Assembly (NCBI GenBank): GCA_003142475.1
Contig: PLMK01000048.1
Coordinates: forward strand, 31,784 to 76,364
DNA length: 44,581 nt
Source of the DNA: Ignavibacteriota bacterium
Lineage (GTDB): Bacteria > Bacteroidota > Ignavibacteria > UBA10030
Reading direction: 5' to 3'
Of this stretch, positions 6,738 to 21,455 are shown piece after piece. Numbering within the stretch: position 1 is the stretch's first letter; each line of letters opens with the position of its first letter. A program made the position numbers and the translations under genes. The notes under the pieces were generated by a model, which ran no database searches, was not told the origin of the DNA, and saw only the letters and a program-made list of their open reading frames with translations.

Positions 6738-8375
6738 CTATGATTTCTGAATGGGGAGGTAAATAGTAACGGTTGTGCCTTTTCCCATCACACTATTGAT
6801 TTCAATCTTACCATTGTGATCGTCTATTACTTTTTTCACAATAGACATGCCGAGACCGGTACCGTGCTTCTTGCCATAAGTCATAAATGGTTCAAAGATA
6901 CGCTTCTTCACTTCTTCCGGCATGCCGGTTCCGGTATCTGTGAAATCGATGCGTACAAAATCGTTCTCTTTGATAGTCGTAATGGTTAATGAACCACCTT
7001 GCGGCATTGCATCGCGTGCATTGCTCGCGATGTTGTAAAACATGCGCACTATTTTATCTTGATCTAAATTTACTATTCCTCTAAATTGGGCAAATTTTTT
7101 CAGTTTAACATTATTCTTCTCCAAATCTTTTCCAATGAAATCCAATACTCCATTCATCAAATCGAAGAATTCTAGTTCTTGGAAATTCGATGCGCTTACC
7201 CCACGCGTGAAATCCAAAATCTCCTGCGTCATATTCACGAATCGGTCTACTTGATGAATCATTTCATCGGCAAGTTTATTTGCTTCTTCATTGCCGGATT
7301 TTCTCTTCATCACCTGTGCGTACACACGCAGTGTGCCCATTGGATTCTTAATATCATGAATTATAACACTTGCCATCTTGCCGACAGCAGACAAGCGTTC
7401 GTTTGCAACCATTTCCTGCGCCATATGTGCGTTCTCAATCGCGACAGAGGCGTGTGCAGAAAGCGCATCGATAAAAGAGACGTCGTCATCATCAAAAGAT
7501 CCTTGATTTTTATTCAAGAGTTGGAATACACCTATGATCTTTCCGTCCTTATTTTTCATCGGCATGCAAAGCATATTACGTGTACGATATCCACTTTGTT
7601 TATCTATTTCAGGATTAAACCGAGGATCAGCATATGCGTCGGGAATGAGAATTGTCTCTCCTGTTTCTGCAACATAACCTGAAAAACCTTTTCCAATCGG
7701 CAATCGGATTTCTATCATATCACTGCCCTGGAGGATCTTTGACCATATTTCTTTCTTAACGTCATCAACAAGATAGAGCGTACCGCGATCTGCGTTAACA
7801 CTCTGTGTAGCTGAGTCGAGAATCAATCCAAGCAATTTATTAAGGTCAAGTGTAGAGTTGATAATCTTACTTGCTTCAATAAGTCGTTGAAGCTTGTTGT
7901 AGCGAATTTCAATTGCTTTACGTTGCTCTTCAAGCTGCATGACGATATTATCATCTGCCTTACGAATGCGGGCGCTTAATTCACCAAGAAGATTGAATGC
8001 AATTTTGTGATTGGTGAGCAGTAATTTTTCAAACTCGGATTTCTCAATCGAAAGAAGAATTGAATCTTCAACACATGTTACGCGTGCTGAGCGCGATCGA
8101 TCATCGAGCGAGGCAAGCTCACCGACAACTTCTCCACACTTTAAAACATCTAGCGTAGTCTCTTCGCCAAATGTAGTTACACGAGAAATTCGGATAATCC
8201 CTTTTCCAATAATATAAACTTTTTTGCCGGATGATTTCGCATCGAAGAGAATTGATCCTGCCGGGTAATGCTCCTCTTTAAACTTTTCCAGAAAATTTGC
8301 TGCTTCGCCGCTCGATAATTCATGAAAGAGCATTGTAGATTGAAGATTGCGAATTCTTTCATCTTGTGTGGGCAT
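6738..8375 (-). CDS. Sensor histidine kinase with cyclic-nucleotide-binding and GAF domains
   Basis: Cytosolic two-component sensor kinase, 545 residues, no membrane segment. Domains in order: a cNMP-binding/CRP-like beta barrel (about 10-130, with GKGIIRI and GEVVGELASLDDRSRSARV), a coiled linker, a GAF domain (about 175-315), a dimerisation/phosphoacceptor helix with H340 in VIIHDIKNPMG, and a HATPase_c domain (N box N448/N452, DTGTG 480-484, GTGLGM 505-510). It would integrate a small-ligand signal and phosphorylate an unlinked response regulator, since none is adjacent. The cNMP domain keeps the GELA and R-S-A-R phosphate-binding-cassette-like residues, so nucleotide binding is plausible but not certain. 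Start ATG at 8375. Confidence 0.92.
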   Translation of the reverse strand: MPTQDERIRNLQSTMLFHELSSGEAANFLEKFKEEHYPAGSILFDAKSSGKKVYIIGKGIIRISRVTTFGEETTLDVLKCGEVVGELASLDDRSRSARVTCVEDSILLSIEKSEFEKLLLTNHKIAFNLLGELSARIRKADDNIVMQLEEQRKAIEIRYNKLQRLIEASKIINSTLDLNKLLGLILDSATQSVNADRGTLYLVDDVKKEIWSKILQGSDMIEIRLPIGKGFSGYVAETGETILIPDAYADPRFNPEIDKQSGYRTRNMLCMPMKNKDGKIIGVFQLLNKNQGSFDDDDVSFIDALSAHASVAIENAHMAQEMVANERLSAVGKMASVIIHDIKNPMGTLRVYAQVMKRKSGNEEANKLADEMIHQVDRFVNMTQEILDFTRGVSASNFQELEFFDLMNGVLDFIGKDLEKNNVKLKKFAQFRGIVNLDQDKIVRMFYNIASNARDAMPQGGSLTITTIKENDFVRIDFTDTGTGMPEEVKKRIFEPFMTYGKKHGTGLGMSIVKKVIDDHNGKIEINSVMGKGTTVTIYLPIQKS

Positions 8376-8473
8376 TCAAAGTACCTTTGTACATGGGTTA
8401 TACCAATAATGTAGATAATAACAAGAATCGTTCACTTAATCAAGAAAGCAGTATTGTGTTTATCTGTAGTAAA

Positions 8474-16676: not shown

Positions 16677-16751
16677 CGGGGTGTGGCTCAGCCCGGTTAG
16701 AGCGCCTGCCTTGGGCGCAGGAGGCCGGAAGTTCGAATCTTCTCACCCCGA
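16677..16751 (+). tRNA. tRNA-Pro (anticodon TGG)
   Basis: Cloverleaf readable by eye: acceptor CGGGGTG/CACCCCG, D arm with GCTCAG..GGTTAGAGC, anticodon stem CCTGC/GCAGG with loop CTTGGGC giving anticodon TGG, T arm with GTTCGAATC. Discriminator A at 16751; the CCA end is not encoded. A terminator follows directly. Confidence 0.97.
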
Positions 16752-16756
16752 CAATT

Positions 16757-16784
16757 AAAGCCCTGTCTTTACAGGGCTTTTTTA
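16757..16784 (+). terminator. Terminator after tRNA-Pro
   Basis: Ten-base stem AAAGCCCTGT/ACAGGGCTTT with loop cttt, continuing into a T run (six T in total) a few bases after the tRNA 3' end. Confidence 0.88.
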
Positions 16785-16874
16785 ATTTTAGAGGTGGCTT
16801 ACCTGTGATTTGCATGTCAATTTGAGAAAATGGTAACAGAAATACTACTAACTTTCAAGGAAGGTTACTATGAA

Positions 16875-17102
16875 ATGCTGCGCCTCATATTCCACGAACG
16901 ATTAAAGAAAAGAATAGATAAAATGGAAACAATTAACGATCCGCAATCGTTTGAAGAACCACTTAATCAATATAAAGCGCTATATCAGAAATTAGATGAC
17001 ATTCATGAAAGAATTAAGTTTTCATTAAATAGTATAAATCTTCTTTTATTAATTCTTGTCATTCTAAATCTGATAAAATTTTTCTATTTTTGGGGTCTCT
17101 AA
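16875..17102 (+). CDS. Small single-TM membrane protein of unknown function
   Basis: A 75-residue protein from the ATG at 16875, which has a strong AAGGAAGG site ten bases upstream; an in-frame ATG at 16830 would give 90 residues but has no visible site. The N-terminal half is a charged, probably helical segment (LIFHERLKKRIDKMETINDPQSFEEPLNQY..KLDDIHERIKF) and the C-terminus is one hydrophobic helix (LLLLILVILNLIKFFYFWGL). It stands alone between tRNA-Pro and the big repeat-protein gene. No family recognised. Confidence 0.55.
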   Translation: MLRLIFHERLKKRIDKMETINDPQSFEEPLNQYKALYQKLDDIHERIKFSLNSINLLLLILVILNLIKFFYFWGL

Positions 17103-17414
17103 TAATTGAGCCGTTATGATTATGACAAAGGATAGGCTTATGAACGACGCATTGACAACAAACGATGTTGTGATTTCTACAAATATTCAATGAAACAAGT
17201 AGGTTGTGCCTAGTGAGAATCCTCTTCCTCAACTCATTCATTTTATTCGAAAATAGAGCTATAGGTCTGCTGATATAATGGCATTTCTAAGACATTCTCC
17301 TATATACAATTAAGAATTTGGCTTATTGACAATAACTTGGAAATTATCTACCATGAATCGCCAAAGTAGGTCTTATTAGGCAAATAATTAAGTCTCCTTA
17401 GTAAGGAATGGGTA
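17103..17414. other. 312-base non-coding stretch upstream of the repeat-protein gene
   Basis: No convincing gene. It carries a promoter-like element near its right end (see 17326) and otherwise AT-rich sequence without clear repeats or hairpins. Confidence 0.5.
17326..17354 (+). promoter_or_regulatory. Candidate sigma-70-type promoter of the repeat-protein/TonB operon
   Basis: TTGACA (17326-17331), exactly 17 bases of spacer, then TACCAT (17349-17354), 60 bases before the start codon at 17415. AAGGAATGGG just ahead of that start serves as ribosome binding site. Pattern match only. Confidence 0.5.
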
Positions 17415-20117
17415 ATGGCAAAAGCTTCAGATTCCCCAAGAAGTGCGGAGCAATTAAAAGAAGTTGCGATATTCCTAAAGCAAGCTGACAAACTTGTTAG
17501 GGAAGGAGACTATACCACTGCACTCGAAGAAATTGCCAAGGCACGTGGAAGAGATCCAAGAAATCTGTATGCTTTAGCATACGAAGAACGTGTACGTTCA
17601 CTTGTAGCAGCGCATAAAGAGAAAAAGGCAGAGCTCGGTGGTGACGTTCCTAAACAGCCAGCAGAACCGCAGCCAATGTCCTCTACACTCGAACACATTT
17701 CTAATCTTGCCATTGTAGAGGCACAACGATCTGCCGCTGTAGCTGCTAAACAAGAACAAGATGTTGCTCTCCGTAAAAAGGAAGAAGAAGAACGCCGAAA
17801 GAACGAAGAACTTCGTAGCCAAGCCATTGGATCGAAAATTTCAGCATTTCTTGAGCGTTCAAGGGATTATTTAGCAAAAGGAGATTTTAACCGCGCTCTA
17901 GATGAAGTAGCGCGCGCGTACCTGTTGGATCCTGCCAATGATAAAATTCATGCAGCGGAAGACCTCATTCGGAAATCGCAAGAAGAATCGCGCTTACGTG
18001 TTGAACAAGAACGGCTAAAAAAACAGGAAGAAGATAACCAGAAACGCCAAGAACTTCTCAAAGCTCAAGTGGCGCGTATGCAACAGGAGAAAGAAGAAAA
18101 GCGTCGCAAAGAAGAAGAAGCCCGTAATAAAGCACAACAACAGAAGATTTCCCAATATCTAAACCGTGCCCAAGAATTCTTGAGCAACGGCAGGCTTGAT
18201 GAGGCGCTAAGCGAATTGGCATTTGTCGTTGTGGTGGATCCGCTGAACGACGAAGTTCTCAGTTTGGAACGGAAAATCCGTGACGCGCAAGAGCAGGAAC
18301 AAGCCGAACAATTAGAACAATATCACCGCCGCGAAGAGGAACAGCGGAAAAAGCGTGAAGCGATTATAACTGCTATTCAGAAACATATAGAAAACGCCGA
18401 GCGTCTTGCCGGTCTGCAAAAATGGTCAGAGGCGTTACGAGTTATAACACGAGCGTACGTGTTGGATCCGGTGAACGACGCTCTGCAGGCATGTGAGAAA
18501 CGCATACAGACAGCACAGGAAGAAGCGTTGAGCATTGCCGAAGAACAACGCCGCCTTTCTGAAGAAACCGTGCATCGTCAGCAGGAGGAAGAACTTCGGC
18601 AGCTTGAACAAGCGGAACGCGAACGTGTTATGCTTGGCGAGAGCGCAGAAACAGAGGCAAAACGCCGTGCCGACAAAGAGAAGGTTTTCCTTTATCTTAC
18701 AAAAGCCCGCGGGTATATGTCCGACGGAAGGTACGAAGACGCTCTTGGCGAAGTTGCCCTTGCTTTCATTATTAATCCGTTTGATGATGATGTGAAACGG
18801 ATGGAACAGGAAATTATTTCATCGCAGAACCAGAAAAAAGCGCAAGAGATAGCAACAGCAGAAGAAGATGCGGCAGCAATGCCAGCCGATGAAACCGGCG
18901 AACAGATTTCCAATCACCTTGCAGAAGCATCACAGTACGCATCTGAACATGAATATAGCAAAGCACTTGACGAAGTCGCTAAAGCATTTATTCTGGATCC
19001 ATTGAGTGAGGCGGTGCAAAAATTTGAGTTTCAACTTCAAAATGAATTTCACGAGTACCAGGAAGAACAACACAAGAAGCAAGAAGAAGAATCTCGGCAA
19101 AACGCAATCAACAAACATAAAACGCGTGCAAAGGAATTTCTCGATCGCGAAGCTTTCGATGAAGCACTTACCGAAGTCATAGATGGATATACGTACGATC
19201 CGGACAGCGCAGAACTCAGGGCGCTTGAACAGCAGATACAAGATGCACATCAACAGTGGCAGGAGAAGCAAGCCGAAGATGAAAAGAATACAAAAATTGA
19301 AGACCTCGTCTTAAAAGCAAAAGAGCACCTCAACAAAGAATTATTTGAAGATGCTCTCAAGACCATTACCGAAGCGATTGTGCTCGATCCAGAGCGCAAG
19401 ACACTGAAAGCAATGGAAATGGAGATTGAAAAAGCTCAACAAGCATTTGAAAAACGGAAACAAACTGAAGAAAATAATAAGGTCATTCAAAAGCATCTTT
19501 TCCGTGCAAAGGAATGCAGAGTCCTCCGGAGCTATGAAGAAGCTATTTCGGAAATCGATCAAGCACTAACTATCGACCCTTCACGCGAAGATCTGCTCAA
19601 TCTCAAAAAACAAACACAGCAAGAGTTAGCCGATTGGCAAAAACAGAAAGATCAGAACGCTAATAAGACATCTCTCAAACAGCATCTGCATCAAGCGCGT
19701 GAATATCTTGCCAAGAAAGTATACGATGAAGCGCTAATGGAAATTGCTCTTGGAATGACGATCGATCTAGAGAATGCTGATTTAAAAACTCTTGAAGAAG
19801 ACATCGTGAAAGCACAGGCGGATGCTGAGATCGCCGAGTTGGAAGTCGCACAAGGAACAACAGAGTCAAATATAAAGAGTGAAGAACGAGATCAGTTAAT
19901 ATGGATACATCTGAGGGCAGCTGATGAGCTCCAGAAACAAAAAGAGTTTGCACATGCGCTTGATGAGTTGGCGAAAGCTTATGTGATCGACCCATTGAAT
20001 AAAGAAGTTAAAAAAGCAGAAATTCGAGTACGGCAAAACGAGATTCGTCATGCACAGCAGACTGGTCAAACTCTGAAATTAGTCTACCCGAATGATAAAG
20101 CAATGGGTGGAAACTGA
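17415..20117 (+). CDS. Large cytosolic TPR-like/coiled-coil repeat protein, about eleven repeats
   Basis: Protein of 900 residues without signal peptide or membrane segment, made almost entirely of one repeated unit. Each unit has a core of about 45 residues, two amphipathic helices with the pattern A..YL..G.Y.EAL.EVA.AY.LDP.N..V...E..I, followed by a charged linker of 15-60 residues rich in E, K, Q and R that should form coiled coil. Cores begin near residues 20, 140, 245, 325, 425, 500, 565, 630, 695, 760 and 830. Units 2-6 are most alike, and their LDP codons recur as ggatcc in the DNA, pointing to expansion by duplication. The family is not one I can name. The next gene, 27 bases on, encodes a TonB-type protein carrying related units in its cytoplasmic part, so the two products may assemble together. 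Confidence 0.85.
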   Translation: MAKASDSPRSAEQLKEVAIFLKQADKLVREGDYTTALEEIAKARGRDPRNLYALAYEERVRSLVAAHKEKKAELGGDVPKQPAEPQPMSSTLEHISNLAIVEAQRSAAVAAKQEQDVALRKKEEEERRKNEELRSQAIGSKISAFLERSRDYLAKGDFNRALDEVARAYLLDPANDKIHAAEDLIRKSQEESRLRVEQERLKKQEEDNQKRQELLKAQVARMQQEKEEKRRKEEEARNKAQQQKISQYLNRAQEFLSNGRLDEALSELAFVVVVDPLNDEVLSLERKIRDAQEQEQAEQLEQYHRREEEQRKKREAIITAIQKHIENAERLAGLQKWSEALRVITRAYVLDPVNDALQACEKRIQTAQEEALSIAEEQRRLSEETVHRQQEEELRQLEQAERERVMLGESAETEAKRRADKEKVFLYLTKARGYMSDGRYEDALGEVALAFIINPFDDDVKRMEQEIISSQNQKKAQEIATAEEDAAAMPADETGEQISNHLAEASQYASEHEYSKALDEVAKAFILDPLSEAVQKFEFQLQNEFHEYQEEQHKKQEEESRQNAINKHKTRAKEFLDREAFDEALTEVIDGYTYDPDSAELRALEQQIQDAHQQWQEKQAEDEKNTKIEDLVLKAKEHLNKELFEDALKTITEAIVLDPERKTLKAMEMEIEKAQQAFEKRKQTEENNKVIQKHLFRAKECRVLRSYEEAISEIDQALTIDPSREDLLNLKKQTQQELADWQKQKDQNANKTSLKQHLHQAREYLAKKVYDEALMEIALGMTIDLENADLKTLEEDIVKAQADAEIAELEVAQGTTESNIKSEERDQLIWIHLRAADELQKQKEFAHALDELAKAYVIDPLNKEVKKAEIRVRQNEIRHAQQTGQTLKLVYPNDKAMGGN

Positions 20118-20144
20118 TAAAAGCACTCGCAAGGGGACGGCAGT

Positions 20145-21455
20145 ATGGAACCACAAGAAAAAATGGATACACAGCAGTTTATCATCGATCGACTGCAAGA
20201 CGTTCATAGGAAAGCTGAAGCAAATAATTTCGCTGACGCTTTAGCTACTATGAAAGAAGTAAAAGCGGCAGATGCAAAGAACATTTATCTCATCGCCATT
20301 GAAAAACAAATTGCTAAATTAAACGATCCTACAATCCAAGCGGAAAACCGCGCTGCAATCATCAAATCGCTTCCTCCTATGATTGATCGCGCTATCAGTG
20401 ATGTCCAACGCCGAACAACTGTTCCAAAGGCGGAAGATTCACAAAAGGTACAAAAAGAAGCGGCACTTGAAAAATTGAAGAGTCAGTACTTTCAGCGTTC
20501 CGATGATTATGTAGAGAAAAAGGAATACCAGCGTGCGCTTGAAGAGATACGGCGCATTTATATCATCGAACCGGGAAGCGTTGTCGCAAAAGAATATGAG
20601 AAAAAAATTGAACAACTCGCCGCACTGCATGCACGTGGAGATTCACCAGCACCGCAGGCAGAAGCAGTGAAGGAAATCAAAAAGGTCGCTCCGATCGCAG
20701 AATCACCAGAAGAAAAACCCAATATTGCTGAAAAATCTAATAAACCAAAGATACTCATCATTGCGGCAGCGGCAATCATAATTCTCTGTGTTGGAGCATG
20801 GTTCATTTTTTCGAAAGGTTCCGCAAACAAACCCAGTAACCAAACGTCGTTGCAGCAACCTACTCTCTTGCAAGATAGTATGAGTCTAGCATCATCCACA
20901 ACGACGACTTCCGCTCCTCCATCTGGAAAAGGACCTGCATCAATCGCTGAGACATCGAAACAGCCTGCGAAAAATCAAAAGACAACACCTGAGGTAAAGC
21001 CACCTGCTACATCAGAAAAAAAACCTGTTCAGACGCCCACGCCGACACAACCAGTACGCACACAAACACAAACGGCGCAACAGCCATCTTCGCAACCTGT
21101 TGTTAACACTCCACCATCGCAACCGGTTCAACAACAGACAAATGCGGCATCAAGCTCACCGGCACCAATGCCATTTGTTGCTATTGAATCTCAGCCTGAG
21201 TTTATCCATCGGGAACCAGCCGTATATCCAGAAATTGCAAGGAAAATTGGACTCCAGGGCAGAGTAACAGTTGAAGTAACTGTCGACGCACAAGGCAAAC
21301 CAATTCAGGCGAAGATTGTAAAGAGTGCTAGCGATGTTTTTAACGAAGCCGCGATTGAAGCTGTTATGAAGTACACTTTCAAACCAGCAATGATGTCCAC
21401 AGGCCCAGTGACTGCAAAAGTCTATATACCGATCGATTTTCGCTTAACGCGTTGA
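20145..21455 (+). CDS. TonB-family protein with cytoplasmic TPR-like domain
   Basis: Inner-membrane protein of 436 residues. N-terminal cytosolic region (1-200) with two units akin to those of the upstream protein (ANNFADALATMKEVKAADAKN at 26-46; VEKKEYQRALEEIRRIYIIEP at 123-143). One membrane helix at about 203-223, a periplasmic Pro/Gln/Thr-rich spacer (225-350) and a C-terminal TonB domain (about 355-436: PEIARKIGLQGRVTVEVTVD, VMKYTFKPAM). TonB proteins transmit inner-membrane energy to outer-membrane receptors, normally with an N-terminal TM helix; a 200-residue cytosolic extension is unusual. No exbB/exbD lie next to it. AAGGGGA precedes the ATG at 20145, and a terminator follows. Confidence 0.88.
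   Translation: MEPQEKMDTQQFIIDRLQDVHRKAEANNFADALATMKEVKAADAKNIYLIAIEKQIAKLNDPTIQAENRAAIIKSLPPMIDRAISDVQRRTTVPKAEDSQKVQKEAALEKLKSQYFQRSDDYVEKKEYQRALEEIRRIYIIEPGSVVAKEYEKKIEQLAALHARGDSPAPQAEAVKEIKKVAPIAESPEEKPNIAEKSNKPKILIIAAAAIIILCVGAWFIFSKGSANKPSNQTSLQQPTLLQDSMSLASSTTTTSAPPSGKGPASIAETSKQPAKNQKTTPEVKPPATSEKKPVQTPTPTQPVRTQTQTAQQPSSQPVVNTPPSQPVQQQTNAASSSPAPMPFVAIESQPEFIHREPAVYPEIARKIGLQGRVTVEVTVDAQGKPIQAKIVKSASDVFNEAAIEAVMKYTFKPAMMSTGPVTAKVYIPIDFRLTR

Follow-up and report, generated by a model that had tools for sequence, protein, structure and literature searches.

What would a long, repeat-built cytosolic protein do beside a TonB-domain protein whose cytosolic end carries the same kind of repeat? 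The question is raised by two genes in a 44,581-nucleotide stretch of contig PLMK01000048.1 from an Ignavibacteriota bacterium, which we call the window and number from its first letter. The scaffold open reading frame (ORF; 17415-20117, 900 aa) and the anchor ORF (20145-21455, 436 aa) both lie on the + strand with exact boundaries, and an ORF check agreed with a preliminary description, made from the sequence alone, in placing the TonB-domain gene 27 bases behind the 900-aa frame. With confidence evenly balanced against doubt, we read the pair as a cytosolic multi-bead hub and a two-unit envelope anchor that would recruit receiver proteins, with a signalling or envelope role rather than one in nutrient uptake. 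The two proteins, built of units that resemble the tetratricopeptide repeat (TPR), have these features (TM, transmembrane; pLDDT, predicted local distance difference test):

17415..20117, + strand: cytosolic scaffold, 900 aa, eleven TPR-like units and long charged helices (units from sequence, helices from AlphaFold2)
17463..17603, + strand: scaffold unit 1, first-position type (...DPRNLYALAYEERV...)
17838..20039, + strand: scaffold units 2-11, whole span
17838-17978, 18147-18287, 18375-18515, 18684-18824, 18906-19046, + strand: scaffold units 2-6
19107-19247, 19296-19436, 19485-19625, 19674-19814, 19899-20039, + strand: scaffold units 7-11
20064..20114, + strand: disordered scaffold tail, residues 884-900 (pLDDT <50)
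20073-20087, + strand: LKLVY peptide in the scaffold tail (motif counts, codon variation)
20145..21455, + strand: TonB-domain anchor protein, 436 aa
20181..20321, + strand: anchor unit 1, cytosolic, about residues 13-59 (predicted helices 3-25, 29-42, 47-59)
20481..20615, + strand: anchor unit 2, cytosolic, residues 113-157 (predicted helices 96-124, 128-141, 146-163)
20751..20807, + strand: single TM helix, about residues 203-221, without His (hydropathy)
20814..21212, + strand: Pro-rich periplasmic spacer, about 133 residues, 17% Pro
21219..21446, + strand: TonB_C domain, residues 359-434 (PF03544, E=1.3e-20)

A repeat unit in the scaffold and its TonB-domain neighbour

The scaffold contains eleven units of 47 residues that align without gaps and start at residues 17, 142, 245, 321, 424, 498, 565, 628, 691, 754 and 829, confirming the earlier count of about eleven. 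Pfam recognised the 34-residue TPR motif in it (TPR_2, PF07719, E=3.7e-10; TPR_14, E=8.6e-10), and a PDB sequence search returned one weak TPR match. The units do not form a contiguous superhelix: their starts are 63-125 residues apart, and long helices run between them in the AlphaFold2 model (12 sequences), in which eleven short helices of 12-14 residues alternate with longer ones. Mean pLDDT was 80.1, with residues 884-900 disordered, and the predicted template modelling score (pTM) of 0.29 is so low that the model does not fix the spatial arrangement of the beads. Hydropathy found no hydrophobic 19-residue stretch in the scaffold such as a TM helix or signal peptide requires, in agreement with the lack of a signal peptide noted before.

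Typical TonB proteins have a short cytosolic N-terminus, whereas about 200 residues precede the TM helix in the anchor. Its single TM helix, Pro-rich spacer and TonB domain, all part of the preliminary description, were recovered by hydropathy and Pfam, and the TonB_C domain was also matched by TIGR01352 (E=6.5e-17). That description had further placed two scaffold-like units in the cytosolic part and proposed scoring it with a profile of the repeat. A hidden Markov model (HMM) of the eleven scaffold units matched anchor unit 2 at E=1e-8 (31.9 bits), far above the best of 2000 shuffles of the window anchor N-terminus (E=0.18), and unit 2 of the eight anchor orthologues examined scored between E=1.1e-8 and 4.5e-15. 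Unit 1 of the window copy was not significant with this HMM; in the orthologue L042 it reached E=0.005. Against a profile of first-position scaffold units, anchor residues 1-105 scored 15.0 bits, which none of 5000 shuffles equalled, while a generic TPR profile gave 9.4 bits, reached by 9 of 5000. Unit 2 is clear, and unit 1 of the window copy is weaker and passes with the first-position profile only. At E<=0.01, Pfam found TonB_C alone on the anchor, with no TPR model, LysM or FHA. Since no Pfam TPR model matches the anchor, its likeness to the scaffold is specific to this unit family.

Cross-scoring of units, which had been picked with the scaffold-unit HMM from related genomes, gave anchor unit 2 a mean of 42.7 bits against internal scaffold units, 37.1 against the second units of the receiver proteins described below and 17.0 against generic TPRs, a set of only 13 units, some of them poor. 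First units of receiver proteins and of scaffolds scored 47.8-50.6 bits, each against the other. AlphaFold2 modelled anchor residues 1-190 (13 sequences) as two three-helix beads joined by a helix (mean pLDDT 82.5, pTM 0.48). Foldseek returned no PDB match for this two-unit module at E<=0.001, and the best rows were mostly TPR proteins; a PDB sequence search with the module gave designed TPRs and weak Fis1 matches. A structural aligner ranked four-helix bundles highest for residues 1-92 (Z up to 11.7, within the range usual for helical bundles); for residues 104-167 the top match was Fis1 (Z 9.3, 64 aligned, root mean square deviation 3.5). As such scores are ordinary for helical bundles, we draw no function from these matches.

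Conservation of the pair and of the scaffold tail

Conservation was examined in 391 genomes of the class and in a narrower family set of 32 that includes the window's own. Strong relatives of the anchor N-terminal module (E<1e-29) occurred in nine of the 32 family genomes, the window's included. Eight of these have a scaffold immediately upstream; in the ninth the contig breaks off at that point, with about the last 51 scaffold residues present. Class-wide counts scored at most two candidates per genome for the scaffold profile, eight for the anchor and six for the receiver. On this basis, 53 module matches (E<=1e-14) were found in 39 genomes and scaffold-profile matches (E<=1e-15) in 41. Both were present in 33 genomes and the scaffold profile alone in 8, at least one of which (G243) has a coiled-coil protein and no scaffold. 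The scaffold match ends no more than 150 bases upstream in 32 of the 53 module matches, and for 38 of them, in 31 of the 39 partner genomes, there is a scaffold on the same strand no more than 1.5 kb away. The adjacency that the preliminary description had put forward for checking is therefore the usual arrangement. Gene order is kept across three protein forms and over module identities of 26-85% to the window copy. All 16 named loci come from metagenome-assembled genomes (Ignavibacteriae, Ignavibacteria, Ignavibacteriales or Bacteroidetes/Bacteroidota). At L118:392-2398, a scaffold relative with its own C-terminal TM helix is located after the TonB-domain partner gene, not before it. Because the repeat profile matches the TonB N-terminus and the genes are usually adjacent, we infer with good reason that scaffold and anchor dock.

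The disordered scaffold tail carries a candidate docking peptide. The motif L[KT][LM][IV]Y is found among the final 40 residues in 23 of 25 partner-adjacent scaffolds (22 of 24 listed, plus L079; the strict form LKL[IV]Y in 20 of the 24) and in none of 6 scaffolds without a following partner, a contrast that is a lead rather than a test, since it was drawn post hoc and between related sequences. Among 401 ORF entries of more than 150 aa, 13 contain the motif, each of which is a scaffold orthologue listed under another name. Because all five codons vary over the 23 sequences, conservation of the tail points to selection on the peptide. Translational coupling was considered as its cause and rejected on account of this codon variation and the position of the motif, which ends 9-36 bases before the stop codon.

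Other carriers of the unit and forms of the partner

Of the 21 matches (E<=0.01) that the unit profile gave in the window genome, 11 fall in the scaffold, 1 falls in the anchor and 9 are spread over seven further proteins. One or more units are combined with a TerB-like region and a receiver domain in five of the seven, two of them encoded on contig C30 and the others singly on C43, C35 and C72 (the C72 protein at E=0.0097); the TerB-like label is based on one sub-cut-off Pfam match (E=0.00046), one alignment and, for three of the five, sequence reading. The remaining two are a class III cyclase with TPRs and an apparently generic TPR protein. In the cyclase (L067:1-2715, G000:C35), one of the TPR-type repeats scored E=2.6e-6 with the scaffold-unit profile. 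A profile of the receiver N-terminus matched in 94 of the 391 class genomes and in all 32 family genomes; many of these weaker matches cover the TerB-like part only, and some are the scaffold itself (e.g. G020, G004). As receiver proteins are present in many genomes without the pair, they do not depend on the scaffold.

The two receiver proteins on C30 are encoded in tandem (L043:5681-6859 and 7128-8423) and have two N-terminal units each, with Glu in place of the phospho-acceptor Asp (ILSE). Their relatives L048 and L049 also have Glu at this position; Asp is retained in L045 and L071 and, by eye, in L065 and L069. The Glu-bearing C30 proteins may be permanently 'on' pseudo-receivers.

Signalling genes also neighbour the scaffold in clade f3 (L078:135-8993, also L077, L080 and L081). 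There, the scaffold genes are preceded by a receiver gene, a HAMP histidine kinase gene and a double-receiver gene, and a SpoIIE-type phosphatase gene follows downstream; these domains were assigned by Pfam in L078 and judged by likeness in L077, L080 and L081. A third kind of unit carrier is found in L138-L143, open frames of about 780-1320 aa whose products join a long coiled coil to two units and end in a TerB-like region, with no receiver domain. Related very long coiled-coil proteins with the unit occur in family f2. A very long coiled-coil protein at L143:1932-4265 has a unit near its N-terminus and two more near its C-terminus, which suggests a bead-rod-bead architecture.

The partner, in turn, is not always a TonB protein. 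In a clade with L077, L078, L080, L086 and relatives it is a soluble two-unit protein of 155-160 aa with neither TM helix nor TonB_C, still encoded directly behind the scaffold gene, which a second scaffold gene precedes in L077, L078 and L080. L125 and L130 encode two units, a TM helix and a short tail without TonB_C, and in L122 and L124 the scaffold is flanked by a TM-only copy in front and a TonB copy behind. Among the three forms (TonB, TM-only and soluble), a tree built from 45 module rows needs 5 changes; since the TM-only row L136 is truncated at a contig end and the soluble row L137 is doubtful, we count at least three real separations. By this distribution, the TonB domain is dispensable, and the common core is the scaffold with a two-unit partner, to which membrane and TonB parts are joined in some lineages. 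The link to the outer membrane suggested in the preliminary description cannot then be the core function, as the pair persists without the TonB domain in several lineages and without a TM helix in one.

Genomic context, rival explanations and known systems

The pair looks like its own two-gene transcription unit, separate from the upstream TPR, DUF4292 and M23-peptidase genes, as judged from three elements upstream of the scaffold gene:

16677-16751: tRNA
16757-16780: terminator-like hairpin after the tRNA
17326..17354, + strand: candidate promoter of the two-gene unit, TTGACA-17-TACCAT (consensus scan, conserved blocks)

The consensus scan returned 13 sites against a mean of 8.8 in shuffles, and the promoter blocks TTATTGACAATA and TTGGAAATTATCTA(C/A)C are kept in 4 aligned genomes. 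Three aligned relatives lack a segment of about 0.45 kb that lies between tRNA and promoter in the window (positions about 16815-17260); inside it lies a 90-aa ORF (16830-17102) with no Pfam match. RND efflux genes converge on the pair from the opposite side.

Three observations together point to an envelope-tied hub for signalling or spatial organisation: the core of scaffold and two-unit partner, the unit-bearing receiver proteins and, in one clade, receiver and kinase genes upstream of the scaffolds. The scaffold is a cytosolic string of eleven TPR-like beads, seen in its sequence, on long charged helices predicted by the model, and the sequence of the anchor shows two like beads, which would face the cytosol, followed by the TM helix, an extended Pro-rich spacer and TonB_C. 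The two-bead module most likely binds the scaffold, perhaps by gripping the L[KT][LM][IV]Y peptide, much as some TPRs grip C-terminal peptides. TonB_C may then hold the complex in the envelope via peptidoglycan or an outer-membrane partner, while the remaining scaffold beads would gather unit-bearing proteins, chiefly the receiver proteins. Such a hub would serve to place or control a signalling or envelope process. Several points weigh against this hub. No scaffold was detected in 6 of the 39 class genomes with an anchor module, and the receiver proteins are common in genomes without the pair, a clear partner being present in only 9 of the 32 family genomes. The tail peptide is missing in the adjacent scaffolds L123_3946 and L132, and the tail comparison was made after the fact and ignored the relatedness of the sequences. 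Finally, similarity of the units shows common ancestry, which is no proof of binding.

ExbB and ExbD, said in the preliminary description to be absent, are indeed lacking in the window, but they are present in the genome: on contig C35 (L005/L050, G000:C35:199-201 kb), the only ExbB-family gene found stands in an ExbB-ExbD-ExbD-TonB set with one ExbB, two ExbD and a separate, ordinary TonB. The anchor could thus be a working energy transducer that uses ExbB/ExbD encoded elsewhere, with the scaffold clustering or regulating it to couple cytosolic state to outer-membrane transport or envelope force, comparable to AglRQS with GltG in Myxococcus. The good TonB_C domain and the C35 set speak for this, and a two-hybrid assay showed interaction of GltG with the motor protein AglR (PMC3169522). 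The TM helix, however, lacks His in 32 of 33 anchor proteins, the window's included (the exception is L085), whereas the ordinary TonB of the same genome has it. In E. coli TonB, this residue is important for coupling to ExbB. ExbB-family genes number 1, 1, 0, 1, 1, 1, 1, 5 and 2 in the nine family genomes with the pair (mean 1.4; the zero may be a gap), versus a mean of 2.3 in the 23 without, and the TonB domain is absent from several lineages that retain the pair. Given the missing His, the lack of ExbB enrichment and an ExbB set with its own TonB, the energy transfer proposed in the preliminary description is not supported. We rejected an ExbB-driven motor as the leading reading and regard a working transducer as improbable.

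Somewhat less improbable, though still unlikely, is a purely structural scaffold, a cytoskeleton-like rod held on the envelope by the anchor for shape or division, with no signalling role. The long continuous helices between beads in the AlphaFold2 model would suit such a rod, as would the very long coiled-coil unit proteins of family f2 and the M23 peptidase gene upstream of the pair in close relatives. Yet a gap of about 0.5-0.9 kb that contains a tRNA separates that gene from the pair; in L041 it is about 3 kb away with another ORF in between, and no M23 relative was found in the stretches examined for L040 and L042. The unit's other carriers in the window genome are, moreover, mainly receiver proteins. 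The units could also be ordinary TPRs that drifted alike, in proteins that have no interaction and whose genes are adjacent through chance of descent, an explanation to which we give little credence. Consistent with it are the PF07719 match of the scaffold and the predominance of TPR proteins among the best Foldseek rows; against it, the unit profiles clearly discriminate against generic TPRs from the same genome, and gene order has outlasted the divergence of the module in all three forms.

Comparison with described systems qualifies the statement, made in the preliminary description, that none has this arrangement, which was too strong. The Myxococcus glt cluster encodes GltI, a large TPR protein that lacks both signal peptide and TM helix, among genes for membrane proteins, including GltG, which has a cytosolic FHA adaptor, a TM helix and a TonB domain, and GltJ, which has a TM helix (PMC3169522). 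As here, the gene of a cytosolic TPR protein stands next to that of a bitopic TonB-domain protein with an adaptor in the cytosol. In contrast, Pfam found no FHA domain in the window anchor, and the available part of that paper mentions no repeat common to GltI and GltG or GltJ. The TonB_C domain of the anchor matched the AgmX/PglI tail model weakly (E=0.0052, 16.9 bits, cut-off 40). An MglB-like polarity switch was set aside: no Roadblock (MglB-type) domain matched in the window genome, in which MglA was not searched for. Nor was a second ExbB/TolQ-type gene, as for an AglRQS-like motor, found in that genome. FimV/HubP proteins have a single TM helix, a domain in the periplasm that binds the envelope, and TPRs in the cytosol by which signalling proteins are recruited; DgcP is recruited by FimV, which FimL links to PilG (PMC7033161). 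The anchor shares the single TM helix and cytosolic TPR-type repeats. Unlike FimV/HubP, its envelope domain is TonB_C instead of LysM, its cytosolic part is N-terminal, and the repeats are split over two proteins.

TonB-like proteins with roles beyond uptake have been described elsewhere. In Pseudomonas PocAB-TonB3, one is needed for type IV pilus production and/or polar placement (PMC5285504); PocAB are ExbBD-like partners, and no such dedicated partner was found for the window anchor. A pilus link was uninformative here, since PilT-family genes (E<=1e-50) are present in 28 of the 32 family genomes and missing in one with the pair and three without. Anabaena SjdR (TonB1) likewise has a non-transport, peptidoglycan-related role, but it is exceptionally short, and neither a scaffold nor cytosolic repeats are mentioned in the part of the source available (PMC8597729). 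In the material returned by a literature search for such a scaffold-anchor pair, nothing but the Glt paper (PMC3169522) bears on the arrangement. By analogy, FimV/HubP and GltI-GltG are nearest in working principle. We file the pair under neither, because their defining features fail: there is no LysM and no FHA.

A more specific form of the envelope-tied hub, which we put forward tentatively, is an undescribed modular Ignavibacteria hub built from one adaptor unit: scaffold, anchor, receivers and coiled-coil proteins would share the bead, the scaffold would be plugged into the anchor by its C-terminal L[KT][LM][IV]Y, and the TonB domain would be a passive tether that can be lost or replaced. 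This suggests that TonB domains serve as envelope tethers of cytosolic hubs in Ignavibacteria, for which our literature searches turned up no account of such a role. The pair offers a small and testable set of parts, namely the two-bead module, the five-residue tail peptide and the receiver family. If the hub recruits receivers, it would reveal how two-component signals are spatially organised in Ignavibacteria.

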